From Candidatus Melainabacteria bacterium (GTDB lineage Bacteria; Cyanobacteriota; Vampirovibrionia; 2-02-FULL-35-15): DNA of 38,755 bases. The notes beneath the pieces were generated by a model that saw nothing but the letters and a program-made list of their open reading frames with translations, did no database searches and was not told the origin of the DNA. The DNA is taken from positions 1 through 38,755 of the forward strand of contig JACQBQ010000017.1 in assembly GCA_016201905.1 (NCBI GenBank), written 5' to 3'. Within the stretch, counting starts at the first letter, position 1, and every line of letters begins with the position of its first letter. Below, piece by piece: positions 10,088 through 17,828 of the stretch. The translations under genes were made by a program, and so were the position numbers.

Positions 10088-10124
10088 CCGAGTGATTTTT
10101 ACACTTGTTGTAAAAAGCGCTCGG
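10088..10124 (+). promoter_or_regulatory. long hairpin before the 10149 gene
   Basis: The segment beginning CCGAGTGATTTTTACA pairs with TGTAAAAAGCGCTCGG across a 5-base loop, giving a 16-base stem with one mismatch and one G-T pair. It ends about 14 bases before the AGAGG of the next gene. A U-run does not follow, so it is more likely an mRNA processing or protective 5' structure, or a 3' end of the nuoM mRNA, than a classical terminator. Confidence 0.55.
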
Positions 10125-10148
10125 CTAATAAAAAATCAAGAGGTCTCT

Positions 10149-10736
10149 ATGTCATCAATGAGTTCAAAGCTTGTTTCAGTGGTGCAGTATACCAGTCAAT
10201 TACTTACTGGAACTAAAACTACAAAAGAAGTACTTGGATTAAACCCAACTGCAAGCTCACGTGAATTGAAAAGTGAATTGATTAATTTTTTCAGTGAAAG
10301 GCTTTTTAATGAAATCTATGGTTTAGATAAAAATGCAAATGAAAGCAATGCTTATCCTTCTATATTGTCTCAGGTAGCATATGTTATGAAAGAAAAATTT
10401 ATTCATCCACCTGCTGAGGCAATACAAAAATTAAAAATAGAAAAATATAGACTTGGGTTAAATCCGAATGCTAGTGATGCTGTTGTTTATGCTTTTGAAA
10501 TTAAAAGAGACTTAAAAGATATGTTAGAAACAATAATTGAAGATGTGCATGGAGTTAAAATACCACAAACTCTTTCTAATAAAGATGAGCTCTATGCATA
10601 TTTAAAAAAAGAGACAGCAATTGTTTTAAGAGAACGGCATAACAGGTTTAAATCCATGACTGATGATGAAATCTACAAAAGAAGAATTAATTCAGCTTTA
10701 AATATTACAATAAAATATATTCATGGAGCTGCATAG
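10149..10736 (+). CDS. hypothetical protein, first of two tandem paralogs
   Basis: The 195-residue soluble, charged, mostly helical product is not recognised. It has KEVLGLNPTASSRELKSEL near 28-46 and a second similar helix-start, YRLGLNPNASDAVVYAFEI, near 100-118, which suggests an internal duplication of a 'LGLNP(T/N)AS' unit somewhat like a J-domain-style start. It ends ALNITIKYIHG. The next gene shares the first unit (REVLNLPKDMNDAALKDF) and the end (LQHAITQIHG), so the two are divergent paralogs. I chose ATG 10149, preceded by AGAGG; a GTG at 10092 lies inside the upstream hairpin. No signal peptide or membrane segment is present. Confidence 0.7.
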   Translation: MSSMSSKLVSVVQYTSQLLTGTKTTKEVLGLNPTASSRELKSELINFFSERLFNEIYGLDKNANESNAYPSILSQVAYVMKEKFIHPPAEAIQKLKIEKYRLGLNPNASDAVVYAFEIKRDLKDMLETIIEDVHGVKIPQTLSNKDELYAYLKKETAIVLRERHNRFKSMTDDEIYKRRINSALNITIKYIHGAA

Positions 10737-10771
10737 TAACTTTAATTTAGTAAAGACCTCGATCAGTAGTC

Positions 10772-10777
10772 TATAAT
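10772..10777 (+). promoter_or_regulatory. -10 box upstream of the second paralog
   Basis: A TATAAT lies 23 bases before the ATG of the gene at 10801, with a good AAAGGAG between them. No clear -35 is seen. It suggests that the second paralog can be transcribed on its own. Confidence 0.35.
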
Positions 10778-10800
10778 AATTTGACTAAAGGAGAAAAATC

Positions 10801-11454
10801 ATGTCATCAATTAATGTAAATCCTACTGGTGGAGCCGACAATGCTTTACCCCAACCAGTACAAAAAGTTAAAAGACCAATTAGAGAAGTATTAAATCTTC
10901 CAAAAGATATGAATGATGCTGCTCTTAAAGATTTTGTGATTACCGTATTTCTTCAGGAGTCTGTAATAGATCTGTTTCACGATTTTGTTTTTGCAGAAAA
11001 TGGTGGAGTTGATGTACGACCAATGTTTGATGAAATTAATAGAAGAATCGAAGAGTTAATAAATAGTGATTATAAGTATGCATTAAAAACCATGGATAAA
11101 GATATTGAAAATGCAAAACAAAAATTAAAACTTCCATCTTATGTAAGTAAGGTAGAGGTTTACCTTGCTCAAGTAGCCATTGATATGAAAAGCGCCTTAA
11201 GTACTATTATTGGAGGAAGTTACAGAGGAGATTATAAAGTCCCAGAGGCAATTGAAAGTTATACCAGCTTTTGCGAGGAGATGAAAGAAGTGGTTTCTAC
11301 TGAATTAAGGAAAAGATTTTCAATAGGAGGTATTCATAAAGTACCTGAAAATGTTCTTGAATATTACTTCGATATTAAATTGCAGCATGCAATAACACAG
11401 ATTCATGGACATGACCCAGAATTTTTAAAAATAACTACCAAAACTATTTTGTAG
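10801..11454 (+). CDS. hypothetical protein, second of two tandem paralogs
   Basis: The 217-residue soluble, helical product is not recognised. After a polar N-terminus (1-25) it has REVLNLPKDMNDAALKDFVI, a central charged region, KQKLKLPSYVSKVEVYLAQV and the ending LQHAITQIHGHDPEFL. These segments align in order with KEVLGLNPTASSRELKSELI, the YRLGLNP unit and the NITIKYIHG end of the preceding protein, while the rest has diverged. AAAGGAG lies seven bases upstream of the ATG. It is convergent with gcvH. Membrane segments and secretion signals are absent, and no function is proposed. Confidence 0.72.
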   Translation: MSSINVNPTGGADNALPQPVQKVKRPIREVLNLPKDMNDAALKDFVITVFLQESVIDLFHDFVFAENGGVDVRPMFDEINRRIEELINSDYKYALKTMDKDIENAKQKLKLPSYVSKVEVYLAQVAIDMKSALSTIIGGSYRGDYKVPEAIESYTSFCEEMKEVVSTELRKRFSIGGIHKVPENVLEYYFDIKLQHAITQIHGHDPEFLKITTKTIL

Positions 11455-13558: not shown

Positions 13559-14393
13559 CATGACAAAGATTTAGAAACAAATCTTCTATAACAATTTTAG
13601 GTTGCATAAATGATTTATGTTTTAAATAAGCAGAAGTTAAATTTTTGTATAAAGTGCAGTATCTTTTATAGTCATTAGCTTTATTGAAGTTGTAGTTTGT
13701 TGTGGCTAAACCAATCAGATAATCTTTTAGATTTGTCTCACTTTCTTCTAACCATTCTTGAGTTTTTTTTGCTTTTTCCAATGCAGTTTTTATATCATTT
13801 GAAAAACAATTTGTCAGATTGCTGTCAATAGTTTGAGCAGTACTTTTATTTATTATTTCTAGGATTGAATCATATTTTTTGTTTATATAGATCGTTTGTG
13901 ATCTACTTAAGATTGTGGGTAAAATGTCATTTCTTGTAGTATTTGCAAAAACAAATGTAGTTCTTTCAGGAGTTTCTTCAACTGTTTTTAACAGGAGGTT
14001 ACAGCTTTCAGGTGGCAGTGAATAAAGATTTGAGTTTTGGAAAAATACAACTCTGAAATATTCAGATGTAATTTGTAGATTATTTAGAAGCTCTCTTACA
14101 GTGTCTATTTTGATTTGATCTTTTTTACTTTTTAAGTCTGGATTAATGGTTATAAGAGCCTGTGGATGTTCGTTTTTTTCTAGCCATTTGCAATTAATGC
14201 AAGTTTCACAAGGAGTACTATTCAGGTTGTTTTTACAATTTAGAATTTTAGCTAGATTTGTTGCAATTGATAAAATAGCATTACTTTCTTTTCCGATAAA
14301 GATATAAGAATTGGCCAGCTTGTCTTTAAGAACTGCATTTGTTAAGAATCTTATTGCTTCTGGATAACTTTCTGTGAGGTTTTTTGAGAACAT
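13551..14393 (-). CDS. holB: DNA polymerase III delta-prime subunit
   Basis: Delta-prime is the stator of the clamp loader that puts the beta clamp on DNA. From ATG 14391-14393 the product has 280 residues with a degenerate ATP loop (FIGKESNAILSIA), the zinc module C...CETCINC, a DEAD-box-like region, the helix SCNLLLKTVEETPERTTFVFA and the LSRSQ segment in place of the SRC motif. This is typical of delta-prime. The frame stays open 165 bases further upstream only because it runs through a repeat (14438-14551); the encoded IPAFAGMT is repeat sequence. A perfect TATAAT lies six bases before the chosen ATG, so the mRNA may be leaderless. Confidence 0.85.
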   Translation of the reverse strand: MFSKNLTESYPEAIRFLTNAVLKDKLANSYIFIGKESNAILSIATNLAKILNCKNNLNSTPCETCINCKWLEKNEHPQALITINPDLKSKKDQIKIDTVRELLNNLQITSEYFRVVFFQNSNLYSLPPESCNLLLKTVEETPERTTFVFANTTRNDILPTILSRSQTIYINKKYDSILEIINKSTAQTIDSNLTNCFSNDIKTALEKAKKTQEWLEESETNLKDYLIGLATTNYNFNKANDYKRYCTLYKNLTSAYLKHKSFMQPKIVIEDLFLNLCHAI

Positions 14394-14437: not shown

Positions 14438-14551
14438 TTGTCATTCCCGCGAAAGCGGGAATCCAGAAAATTGTCGCAAGCCTAACTATACTGGATTTCC
14501 TCGCCTCGTCTCCGACAAGGCGGAGCGGGCAGGTCAAGCCTGGAATGACAA
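14438..14551. repeat. palindromic repeat, family B
   Basis: The element is bounded by TTGTCATTCC and GGAATGACAA and contains the tight hairpin CCCGCGAAAGCGGG and an inner CTGGATTTCC/GGAATCCAG pairing. It is of the widespread GTCATTCCCGCGAAAGCGGGAATC type, GC-rich against an AT-rich background. It lies between the divergent holB and the SpoIIE-like gene, so it separates or carries their promoters, and it adds a false N-terminal extension to the holB frame. Confidence 0.85.
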
Positions 14552-14639
14552 TGGGCAAAAGACATTTACTTGTCTTTAGTTAACCTGTTCTATTTGGTGT
14601 AACATTTTTAATTGTTGGAAGTCTTTATGATTAAATCTT

Positions 14640-15899
14640 ATGCCTGTTGATCTGGAAAAATCTAATAATTCTAAAGTGCTAGTAGAAATAGTTTCTTTTA
14701 TACGTGAGTTAGATAAACTGTCTTTGAAAAAAGAAATAGGAAGTTTGTTACTTAATGAAATAAGTTTATTATTAAGCCCAAGATTTTCTTCTTTTGTTGA
14801 AAAGGAAAATGATGTTTTGAAGGTCATTTGCCAGACTGGTGAAAGTGATTCTGTTAAAAATGCATTTAGTAATAAAATGTGTCTTGAAATATTTGATTGG
14901 GTAATGAACCAAAAACAGCTAACATCTTTAAAACTTTCAGAAAAAGGGCAATTTGTTTTTATTCCAATTTTGGATCAAATTAAAAGCCAGAACATAGAAC
15001 ATGGAATATTAGTGATTTATATAGGAGACTCTGGATTTGAATTTAGTAAAGAGCTGAATACTACTGTCAATATCATGTGTAAGTTGGCAGTTTTGTCATT
15101 AACTAAGTCATTGAGGATTAGTGACTCGGAAAAGTATATTAGACTCCAAGAGCAAATCAAGTCAGAATTAACACTAACAGCAAAACTTCAAAAAGCAGTA
15201 TCTGGAAGTGAAATAAATAAAAAAATGTTGATTAGTGTTTTAGAAGATGAAGGTACTGGCTTTAATGGAAACGTTTGGTGGATAAATGAATTGAGCGCAG
15301 ACATAAGCCTGGTGTTAATGGCTGAAGTATTATGCAAAGGCTCTCCATCAGCCATGTTGAGTGGTTATCTTTTAGGTGAAATGAATAGCCTGAAATCAAG
15401 AGCAGAAATCTCATTAAAACCACAGGAAGTTTTAAAATATTTAAATCAGCAGTTAAACCCGATTTTTAAAAGTACAGGAATTACTGTTAATGCATGGTAT
15501 GGAGTATTTAATGCTGGAGCAAAAAAAATAAGATTTGCAAATGCAAATCATCCTGATCCATATATCGTTGGGCCTGAACAACAAGTATCAAATTTAATTT
15601 TAAGCATAAGTGAAAAAGGTAAACCGCTTGGAATAAATCTGGATTCAATATTTACTGAATCATGCTCTGATATTTCAAGTGGATCAAAACTAATTATCTG
15701 TACGAGGGAGCTTTTAGAGCAAGCAGCAAAAATTGGTGATAGGTACGATCCTACTTGGTTTCCTCAGGTTCTAGAAACTATTGGTACTTTATCATTGTCT
15801 GAAATGAGAAATAGTTTAGAAAGCATATTATCAGAAAATGCAGGTGGAACAGCAAAAGCCGCTCCTCGTCTAGCTTTGTTACTAGAGATTCCTTCTTAA
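14640..15899 (+). CDS. GAF plus degenerate SpoIIE-type (PP2C) phosphatase protein
   Basis: The 419-residue product has a GAF-like N-terminal half (about 15-165) and a C-terminal SpoIIE/RsbU-type PP2C fold (about 190-415), recognisable from PSAMLSGYLLGEM, PQEVLKYLNQQL, FNAGAKKIRFANANHPDPYIV, KGKPLGI and SSGSKLIICTRELLEQA. The metal-binding positions of active enzymes are changed: the first GD is GN (about residue 209), the 'DVSGKG' Asp is Glu (AEVLCKG), and 'YTDGL' is CTREL. It is therefore probably a pseudo-phosphatase that senses or binds rather than hydrolyses. The normal role of the family is partner-switching control of anti-sigma antagonists. A PAS histidine kinase follows after 204 bases. 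Confidence 0.75.
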   Translation: MPVDLEKSNNSKVLVEIVSFIRELDKLSLKKEIGSLLLNEISLLLSPRFSSFVEKENDVLKVICQTGESDSVKNAFSNKMCLEIFDWVMNQKQLTSLKLSEKGQFVFIPILDQIKSQNIEHGILVIYIGDSGFEFSKELNTTVNIMCKLAVLSLTKSLRISDSEKYIRLQEQIKSELTLTAKLQKAVSGSEINKKMLISVLEDEGTGFNGNVWWINELSADISLVLMAEVLCKGSPSAMLSGYLLGEMNSLKSRAEISLKPQEVLKYLNQQLNPIFKSTGITVNAWYGVFNAGAKKIRFANANHPDPYIVGPEQQVSNLILSISEKGKPLGINLDSIFTESCSDISSGSKLIICTRELLEQAAKIGDRYDPTWFPQVLETIGTLSLSEMRNSLESILSENAGGTAKAAPRLALLLEIPS

Positions 15900-16103
15900 T
15901 GAAATCTTAGTAGTGCCATTTCAAACTCAAGTAGAAGTACTACAGCAAAAGGATGATAAGGCTGTAAAGGTGAATTTTTCTTTAAACCAACTTATTCTTT
16001 TGAGTTGTTTAGTAGATTTTGAGGTACATAAAAGATAATCAGTGAGTGGTTTTAACGTAACTTAAAAGTATGGCTCTAGAATAGAAATAGTAAAAATAAA
16101 AAT

Positions 16104-17828
16104 ATGACGATTTCAAAATCAATCTTTAGCTATTTGGAAAAACTAAACTATCAATTTCAGGATTTAAGTTTTCGCTTCCCTATTGAAACATTGGATAGTC
16201 TTTTGAAAAACTTTTATAAAGATTATGATGAATCAGCTTTTTTACTTCAGGCTAGTAAAAGCATTCCAAATCTAACGCTAAAGAAAATATCAAAATCATA
16301 CTTGCTTAAAGTACCTGTTCAAAACGGCAGCAATGAGCATTTGTATATTGGAATGTCTGATCTCCTGACATTTTTAGTCTTGTTTGATGAACCTAATCCT
16401 GAAGAGCAAAACATTAGTAAACAGAGGTCGAGATTTTTTCTGACTTTTGATACAGCAGTAATAAACTTGGTTTTTAATTACTTCTACAGGCATTATTGTA
16501 AGTCCCTTACTATTAAAGAAAAGAAGCTGTTAATAAGACTTAAGAACGTTAGAACAAATGCTCTCGATCCAATGTATGTAAGCAAGTTTCAGGAAGCTTT
16601 ATTGATTAATGCTTTGAGTGATAACAATAAGATTAAACAAGCAAAAATTTTAGAAGCAATTTCTTTTACTGATGAATCAGTTCTTATTACCGATCTAGCA
16701 GGTACTGTAAAAGAAACAAATAAGAACTTTGAAAAATACTTTGGAAAGCGCTCAGATATAAATTCAATTAAGGACATATTGCCTCATGACATTGTTGAAT
16801 CTGCAATTTGTGAAACAGCTAAAAAATCTAAGTGGCAGTCTGAAGTTGAATTAGTATTAGATGGGAAAAAATCTGAACTTCTACTTGTCAGCTGCTATCT
16901 GTTTAAAGATGAGTTAGGCAGACCAAATGGTTTTGTTTTTACTTTTAAAAATATAACTGAGCTTAAAAAACTTGATAATTTAAATAAACAGCTCATAAAT
17001 AAGCTGCGTGAAAGGAATGTGCAGCTTACTGAAGTAAATAAGCGGCTTTTAGAAGCTGACAGAATTAAAACTGATTTATTGTCTGTAGTCAGCCATGAGT
17101 TAAAAACGCCAGTTTCAACAATACTGGGATTTAGTGAATTAATTGCAAATAGGCAGCATAATGAGAATACGATTACGCAATATGCAGAACAAATAAATGC
17201 CTCTGCAAAAAACCTGGACAGGCTTATAACTGATTACCTTGATGTTGCATGTAATCAGTTTGGTGCTTCATCTGACAAACTATATACAATGCCATTAAAT
17301 CTTATTGAGTTAATAAGAGTTTGCTTTAAGGAAGAACAGCTTAATTTTAGTGATAAGAGATTTCAGCTTGAACTAAATTGCCTTGGCTATGAACCCGTTG
17401 TTATTACTGAAGCACAAAACATGCAAAAACTATTTGGTAATTTAATAAACAATTCCCTAAAGTACAGCCCAAATGGTGGAAAAGTATCGGTGAAAATTTT
17501 AAATGATGGTGAAAATGTAACTGTTTCAATAAGTGATCAAGGTATAGGCTTGACGATTGAACAAGCAAAACAAGTTTTTGAACCATTCTACAGGGCAGAT
17601 AATTCAATTACAAGGGAGTCTTCAGGGATTGGGCTGGGATTAGCAGTCTGTAAAAAAATAGTTGAGTTATATAAAGGGTCTATTTGGTGTGAACCAGGTG
17701 TTGACCTAGGAACAGTGTTTTATATAACATTGCCTGTTAATCCTAATAAAGTCAAAGCTGAGCAAAAAATTAATGTTGAGAGTAAAGAAATCTCTAAAGT
17801 AGAAGCTGATATAAGGGATAAAAGATAA
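16104..17828 (+). CDS. PAS-domain sensor histidine kinase
   Basis: The 574-residue product has an unrecognised N-terminal domain (1-175), a PAS domain (about 180-290, AISFTDESVLITDLAGTVKETN), a coiled coil, a HisKA dimerisation domain with His331 in SHELKTPVSTILGFSEL, and a HATPase domain with the N box NLINNSLKYSPNGG, G1 SDQGIGL, FEPFYR and G2 GIGLGLAVCKKIVE. It is catalytically complete. No membrane segment is evident, so it should be cytosolic. A highly charged tail follows the kinase domain. No response regulator is adjacent, and the closest gene is the pseudo-phosphatase upstream, which suggests a shared signalling route. The gap of 204 bases (15900-16103) holds only a doubtful 41-codon GTG frame (15913-16038). 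Confidence 0.9.
   Translation: MTISKSIFSYLEKLNYQFQDLSFRFPIETLDSLLKNFYKDYDESAFLLQASKSIPNLTLKKISKSYLLKVPVQNGSNEHLYIGMSDLLTFLVLFDEPNPEEQNISKQRSRFFLTFDTAVINLVFNYFYRHYCKSLTIKEKKLLIRLKNVRTNALDPMYVSKFQEALLINALSDNNKIKQAKILEAISFTDESVLITDLAGTVKETNKNFEKYFGKRSDINSIKDILPHDIVESAICETAKKSKWQSEVELVLDGKKSELLLVSCYLFKDELGRPNGFVFTFKNITELKKLDNLNKQLINKLRERNVQLTEVNKRLLEADRIKTDLLSVVSHELKTPVSTILGFSELIANRQHNENTITQYAEQINASAKNLDRLITDYLDVACNQFGASSDKLYTMPLNLIELIRVCFKEEQLNFSDKRFQLELNCLGYEPVVITEAQNMQKLFGNLINNSLKYSPNGGKVSVKILNDGENVTVSISDQGIGLTIEQAKQVFEPFYRADNSITRESSGIGLGLAVCKKIVELYKGSIWCEPGVDLGTVFYITLPVNPNKVKAEQKINVESKEISKVEADIRDKR

Follow-up and report, generated by a model that had tools for sequence, protein, structure and literature searches.

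A predicted SpoIIE-type pseudophosphatase and its neighbour, an orphan histidine kinase, in a family of Melainabacteria

We analysed a stretch of 38,755 nucleotides from a Candidatus Melainabacteria bacterium, a non-photosynthetic relative of cyanobacteria (contig JACQBQ010000017.1 of GenBank assembly GCA_016201905.1, positions 1 to 38,755 of the forward strand), hereafter the window. It is contig C27 of a genome (G000) of 2.28 Mb that is 98.9% complete. Two adjacent genes on its plus strand are the subject of this report: the first encodes a protein with a degenerate SpoIIE/PP2C phosphatase domain, very probably a pseudoenzyme, and the second encodes an orphan histidine kinase. Both open reading frames lie where a first-pass annotation, a model's reading of the letters without database searches, had placed them. 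Their features are as follows.

14640..15899, plus strand: putative pseudophosphatase gene, 419 amino acids, laid out as GAF, helical linker and SpoIIE/PP2C (open reading frame and Pfam)
14667..15119, plus strand: GAF domain, about residues 10-160 (AlphaFold model and fold match to 3cit_A)
15126..15203, plus strand: helical linker to the PP2C domain, residues 163-188 (helix in the model, predicted local distance difference test score, pLDDT, about 50-58)
15222..15896, plus strand: degenerate SpoIIE/PP2C domain, about residues 195-419 (PF07228, 54.5 bits; alignment with active paralogs)
15270..15272, plus strand: N211, at the position of SpoIIE D610, GD to GN (paralog alignment)
15324..15326, plus strand: E229, at the position of SpoIIE D628, DVSGKG to EVLCKG (paralog alignment)
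15348..15395, plus strand: putative switch helix alpha1, about residues 237-252 (most conserved stretch between dead and active proteins)
15705..15707, plus strand: R356, at the position of SpoIIE D746, TDG to TRE (paralog alignment)
15858..15869, plus strand: AAPR, residues 407-410, at the position of SpoIIE D795, where active paralogs have DDDR or xDDR (paralog alignment)
16017..16042, plus strand: conserved intergenic block TTTTGAGGTACATAAAAGATAATCAG upstream of the kinase (comparison within the order)
16104..17828, plus strand: orphan histidine kinase gene, 574 amino acids (open reading frame and Pfam)
16104..16628, plus strand: kinase N-terminal domain, residues 1-175 (restricted to the family apart from one marginal match)
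16674..16961, plus strand: kinase PAS domain, residues 191-286 (PF13426, 27.3 bits, cut-off 27)
17067..17252, plus strand: kinase HisKA domain, with H331 at 17094-17096 (PF00512, 48.5 bits)
17415..17741, plus strand: kinase HATPase_c catalytic domain (PF02518, 93.2 bits)

The product of 14640-15899 matches the Pfam SpoIIE family above its cut-off of 25 bits, and the family is matched by all nine orthologs (best E 1.3e-17). In the structure of SpoIIE, the metal ligands are Asp628, Asp746 and Asp795, and Asp610 is the would-be ligand of a second metal (PMC3517971 and PMC5468089, as far as the accessible text of each goes). An alignment with active paralogs reveals that all four of these aspartates have been replaced in all nine pseudophosphatase orthologs, that of the window included. 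By motif order, the positions of D610, D628, D746 and D795 are presumed to correspond to the GD, DVSGKG, TDG and DD motifs, respectively. The nine orthologs have N or K at the first of these positions, E (three) or Q (six) at the second and R, N, K, S or H at the third, and none has Asp at the fourth. The four ligands are all Asp in 17 of 17 active paralogs, comprising 9/9 from the window's own family (f1) and 8/8 from family f4. Further, the four acids are present in 16/16 homologs from other classes of the phylum, picked among the matches listed in the phylum sample (by eye; cyanobacteria by inference). The three losses named in the first-pass annotation, GD to GN, DVSGKG to EVLCKG and TDG to TRE, are thus real, but its list was incomplete, for the loss at the C-terminal DD had been overlooked. 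We consider it very probable from this alignment that the protein is a pseudoenzyme whose catalytic metal site has been lost.

Profile matches occur in 122 of the 386 genomes of the phylum sample and in 24 of the 382 genomes of the class sample (an even sample of a larger group), with 10 of these 24 coming from the window's family. All 14 class-sample matches outside that family were inspected: the eight from f4 and those of genomes G020, G080, G064, G025, G015 and G039. The homologs of G020 and G080 keep the four ligands; three are visible in G064, the fourth lying beyond a frame that is cut at the contig end; and G025 has TEG in place of TDG. G015 and G039, from one genus of family f6, are without at least two ligands: they have N or S at the first ligand position and E at the second, with TD kept at the third. 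Their SpoIIE proteins (L147 1900-3423 and L148 1686-3221; 507 and 511 amino acids) have a different N-terminus that is receiver-like by eye, and no kinase gene was seen by eye beside them within the 5 kb read. Judged from sequence, this is a separate, partial ligand loss in a non-orthologous protein of another architecture, and SpoIIE domains therefore decay more than once in the class.

When 28 linker-plus-PP2C sequences are placed on a tree, all nine pseudophosphatases group in a single clade, with support of 100/100. The stem of this clade is 2.57 changes per column long, and its placement among the active paralogs is unsettled, the tree program warning of long branches meeting. The alignments indicate that the pseudophosphatase has diverged, as a paralog, from the active GAF-GAF-SpoIIE-HATPase protein of the same genome; the PP2C domains of the two have a common ancestry and are 27% identical on average. 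The active paralog (L061 8003-10435) matches GAF twice and SpoIIE at 131 bits; in contrast to the window protein, it has all four ligands intact, a second GAF domain, a fused HATPase_c_2 domain and an STAS gene alongside. All eight genomes of the order with a completeness of 90% or more carry it. The nonsynonymous rate (dN) is below the synonymous rate (dS) in 6/6 pairs of pseudophosphatase orthologs tested, the closest pair, G002-G003, having a dN of 0.10 and a dS of 0.71; dS is high or near saturation in the other pairs. The gene appears to be under purifying selection. Nine intact, conserved open reading frames and a dN below dS rule out chance or a simple pseudogene.

What has been retained in the protein bears on what it may do. 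Its N-terminal part has no significant Pfam match. The AlphaFold model of this part consists of blocks with pLDDT mostly 72-91, and its top fold match, with Z 16.8, a root-mean-square deviation of 2.7 and 153 residues aligned, is 3cit_A, the GAF domain of a putative sensor kinase. In SpoIIE, the switch consists of alpha1 and alpha2 (residues 630-678), which follow straight after the D628-G629 junction; it touches its mate across the dimer and moves upon activation (PMC5468089, in the text available). In RsbU and its relatives, the signal of the sensor reaches the switch via helical linkers (PMC12143880, likewise from part of the paper). When dead and active proteins of eight genomes were compared in 15-residue windows, the stretch 237-251, corresponding to alpha1, had the highest identity (50%, against a mean of 27%). 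The runner-up, residues 296-310 (NANHPDP), was close behind at 49% and is probably a core strand and loop. By this comparison few parts of the domain have changed as little as alpha1, which adjoins a lost ligand. The position of the linker has been retained as well. Between dead and active proteins, identity averages 13% in the GAF domain, 23% in the linker and 27% in the PP2C domain. Within the dead family (eight genomes) the PP2C domain is kept better than the GAF domain (60% versus 38%), as would be expected if the PP2C domain touches a fixed partner. A profile search of solved-structure sequences with the pseudophosphatase returned no match, and a sequence match to the solved structure of the repeat-like protein OT3 (E 2.5e-4) was judged spurious.

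The pseudophosphatase is confined to a narrow group of organisms. It is present in 9 of the 11 genomes searched from the window's order, across seven genera; the named relatives that carry it comprise three assemblies labelled Candidatus Melainabacteria and one labelled Candidatus Caenarcanales. Genome G008 has the active paralog only, and G009 (79% complete) has neither. Among the 382 class genomes, orthologs scoring 600 bits or more occur only in the window's family, and other matches reach at most 137 bits; in the phylum sample the other matches to the pseudophosphatase profile are weaker still, among the matches listed. Co-conservation in related genomes, which the first-pass annotation had put forward as a check, is found: the kinase lies directly downstream on the same strand in every one of the nine carriers, and G008 has the kinase alone. 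In 9/9 the pseudophosphatase stands between holB, which is on the opposite strand, and the kinase, from which a gap of 16 to 204 bases separates it. Past holB lies fliO in 8/9 carriers, the ninth, G006, ending there. A family 2 glycosyltransferase (GT2) gene follows the kinase in 8/9 (in G004 with one extra open reading frame between), and none follows it within the stretch fetched from G007.

The kinase is intact, as the first-pass annotation had it, with Pfam matches to PAS (PAS_9), HisKA and HATPase_c. Its ortholog is full length in 10 genomes of the order, and the match in G009 is partial, at a contig end. H331, in the motif HELKTP, is invariant in the nine full-length kinases aligned; the tenth, from G007, was excluded owing to its broken frame. 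That frame (L058 10613-12331) is interrupted once within its N-terminal domain, where an in-frame TAA follows codon 99 in an A/T run; the break may be real or an error of assembly. The N-terminal domain itself occurs in 10/11 genomes of the order, in 10/382 of the class (all from the window's family) and in 9/386 of the phylum, these being eight from the window's family and a marginal, partial match in G465 (E 2.6e-4). A Pfam search with nine members gave no credible match (best DUF3791, in one member, E 0.004). Its conserved motifs are NFRFPIETL, YIGLSDLL and FFLTFD. The structure model of the kinase has a mean pLDDT of 42 and was set aside.

No response-regulator reading frame was recognised in the window, and a search of the whole genome for REC domains gave 18 matches, none of them on contig C27; the claim that no response regulator lies nearby was therefore correct. 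Several response regulators of the genome have no recognisable kinase alongside, by eye, and one of them (L096; Response_reg and Trans_reg_C) may resemble cyanobacterial RpaB. The orphan kinase could signal to one of these unlinked regulators.

Between the two genes lies the block TTTTGAGGTACATARAAGATAATCAG at 16017-16042 (plus strand). Its 19-base core is exact in 7 of the 11 genomes of the order; a form with two mismatches precedes the kinase in G001, and a looser form is present in G008. The core is a single copy in the window's genome at up to two mismatches. A second conserved block, at about 15905-15960, lies closer to the pseudophosphatase stop. No Rfam family matched the gap at E up to 1, no covarying base pair was found in it, and promoter and terminator scans gave no telling excess over shuffles (18 versus 16.7 and 3 versus 1.9, respectively). 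The block at 16017-16042 is perhaps an operator or leader of the kinase.

An active SpoIIE-type enzyme in the same genome raises the question of whether the window protein works in its pathway. Of the two STAS matches in the genome, one is strong (62 bits) and adjoins the active paralog on contig C23; the other, at a different place, is weak (23.8 bits). Contig C27 has none in this genome-wide search. The stretch L061 8003-11896 is likely a complete partner-switching system of the genome. Because the only strong STAS gene adjoins the active paralog, action of the pseudophosphatase on an anti-sigma antagonist is unlikely, in agreement with the first-pass annotation. The window protein shares with RsbU, RsbP and RsbZ the layout of sensor, linker and PP2C domain and the alpha1 switch helix, and RsbZ carries tandem GAF domains (PMC12143880, in the portion available); it differs from them in lacking all four metal ligands and in having no STAS gene on its contig. 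A divergent gene of the sigma-70 family, resembling those of extracytoplasmic function (ECF), is found at 11258-11896 of L061, near the active paralog and its STAS gene.

With four ligands lost, the domain and its alpha1 retained under apparent purifying selection, and the pairing with the kinase gene conserved, all seen in the sequences, the explanation that we favor, at even odds, is a non-enzymatic, GAF-sensing pseudophosphatase of the SpoIIE-type PP2C family that binds a partner protein via its linker and switch. The neighbouring kinase is the leading candidate for that partner; it is unproven and, in our estimate, about equally likely to be the partner or not. Signal binding in the GAF domain, presumably of a ligand, would alter the linker and the dimer, which in turn would shift the switch helices, so that the pseudo-active face might capture or release the partner. 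If the partner is the adjoining kinase, contact would probably be made through its family-specific N-terminal domain, and an unlinked response regulator would receive its phosphoryl output. The fuller proposal, that a GAF-gated pseudophosphatase directly controls the histidine kinase by docking its switch helices on that domain, is tentative, and we place it somewhat short of an even chance.

Several observations weigh against the favored explanation. The pair belongs to a wider conserved gene block, so adjacency alone is weak evidence, and the joint distribution of the pseudophosphatase and the kinase domain is confounded by shared ancestry and does not prove interaction. In G008 the kinase is in its usual position, and 330 bases stand where the pseudophosphatase gene would be; the kinase can therefore persist alone. 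A stretch of 22 codons in that gap, interrupted by one stop, is similar to the C-terminal end of the family (best tblastn E 0.003), but 2 of 200 shuffles matched equally well, making a remnant likely, not certain. The presence of the intergenic element in G008 as well suggests that the kinase may have its own expression signals, and the partial loss in G015 and G039 indicates that ligand loss need not accompany a kinase. Mirror-tree residuals gave no clear excess, with r of 0.2 between the whole pseudophosphatase and the kinase versus 0.12 between the pseudophosphatase and holB; for the PP2C part, the values were 0.1 with the kinase versus 0.38 with holB, and the GAF part gave -0.18. This comparison has low power, for it covers seven of the nine pair-carrying genomes (G005, on a short contig without some of the neighbours, was dropped, and G007 was left out for its broken kinase frame) and four of eight background genes, holB among them, G006 being without the other four on its contig. 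Within the domain itself, alpha2 has no special conservation (21% identity between dead and active proteins), which limits the switch argument. Confidence in the PP2C part of the model is low, with pLDDT mostly below 50 from residue 288 on, and statements on this part accordingly rest on the alignment instead. Lastly, of the acids invariant across the nine orthologs (E202, D203, E313, E340 and D370), E202 and D203 lie near the lost GD and could form an alternative metal site, although the probability of this is low. The interpretation of the first-pass annotation is thus supported in part: the metal site is lost, and the kinase is intact without an adjacent response regulator, whereas binding or control of the kinase stays a proposal in view of G008, the wider gene block and the mirror-tree result.

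Among the alternatives, the best surviving, which we hold to be rather unlikely, is that the pseudophosphatase acts within partner-switching and the kinase is a mere neighbour. It would damp the pathway either by pairing with the active paralog in mixed dimers, with linker and switch helix as the contact, or by holding phosphorylated STAS protein. The helix alpha1, part of the dimer interface in SpoIIE (PMC5468089, in its accessible text), has the highest identity to the active paralog, which is itself present throughout the more complete genomes of the order and adjoined in G000 by the STAS gene. However, the pseudophosphatase of G000 lies on a different contig from that locus and is beside the kinase in all nine carriers, and its GAF domain and linker have strongly diverged from those of the active paralog.

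Next in order, and unlikely, is a role like that of RssB, in which the protein would bind a response regulator, a sigma factor or a protease client independently of both kinase and STAS protein. RssB, which serves the general stress response in E. coli and P. aeruginosa, is a pseudo-PP2C adaptor (PMC12143880, from the part available) that uses its PP2C domain for binding, governed by a helical linker and switch helices, and the E. coli protein is inactive (PMC12143880 and PMC5468089, in their accessible portions). The window protein has the same combination of lost ligands and kept switch helix, from which loss of catalysis is predicted; further, P. aeruginosa RssB ranks sixth among Foldseek matches to its model, and the genome has the several response regulators, noted above, without an adjoining kinase. 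The Foldseek match, however, rests partly on the low-confidence part of the model (template-modelling score 0.21-0.25), and no linked sigma-factor or regulator gene was recognised. The architectures also differ: RssB has an N-terminal receiver domain and sigma S as its client, which it passes to ClpXP, and the E. coli protein is inactive by C-terminal truncation, whereas the window protein has an N-terminal GAF fold, with no receiver (REC) match in a Pfam scan, a full-length PP2C domain with ligand substitutions, and a kinase neighbour.

That the domain is still an enzyme, with shifted metal ligands or a different chemistry, seems to us quite improbable. The retention of the domain and its five invariant acids would fit such an enzyme, but the four canonical ligands are gone, with no acid conserved at any of them (the nearest case being E in 3/9 and Q in 6/9 at the D628 position), and acids at shifted positions were looked for in the alignment of orthologs with active paralogs, where no second or shifted PP2C-like metal motif was seen. 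Least probable by our reckoning, and very much so, is a gene in relaxed decay with little or no function, for, despite the long stem and the absence of the gene, perhaps but for a C-terminal remnant, from G008, it is intact in 9/9 carriers across seven genera, with dN below dS in every pair tested and strongly conserved blocks.

The favored explanation, a sensor that binds its partner without catalysis, has precedents. TAB1 (PMC5468089, in the text available) and PHLPP2 (from similarly partial sources) are eukaryotic PP2C pseudophosphatases in which the fold is kept as a non-catalytic regulator, their sensors and partners being other than those of the window protein. The authors of PMC5468089 propose, in the portion available, that PP2C enzymes can acquire another function by passing through a pseudoenzyme stage in which the allosteric switch persists, and they cite RssB for this. 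The protein of the window's family appears to be a second example from bacteria; it has a GAF sensor, a kinase neighbour and an active paralog still in the same genomes, which makes the idea of a pseudoenzyme stage directly testable. If the kinase is the partner, two signalling worlds that are usually kept apart become linked; if the kinase is controlled, a regulatory module of Ser/Thr phosphatases has been taken over by a two-component system. Among the papers listed in our literature searches, which lacked most subscription papers, none connected a SpoIIE-type pseudophosphatase of bacteria with a histidine kinase.

Three observations concern other parts of the window. The listed start of the holB reading frame falls, by eye, inside an apparent intergenic repeat, CATTCCCGCGAAAGCGGGAATCC, at 14440-14558, and the true start is probably the ATG near 14393. 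Two adjoining open reading frames at 10092-11454 have no credible Pfam match, and G008 carries a relative of the first in the corresponding position. At the contig end, 36080-38549 encodes a serine recombinase (matches to Resolvase, Recombinase and zinc ribbon) and a small HTH_psq protein, and is a possible mobile element.

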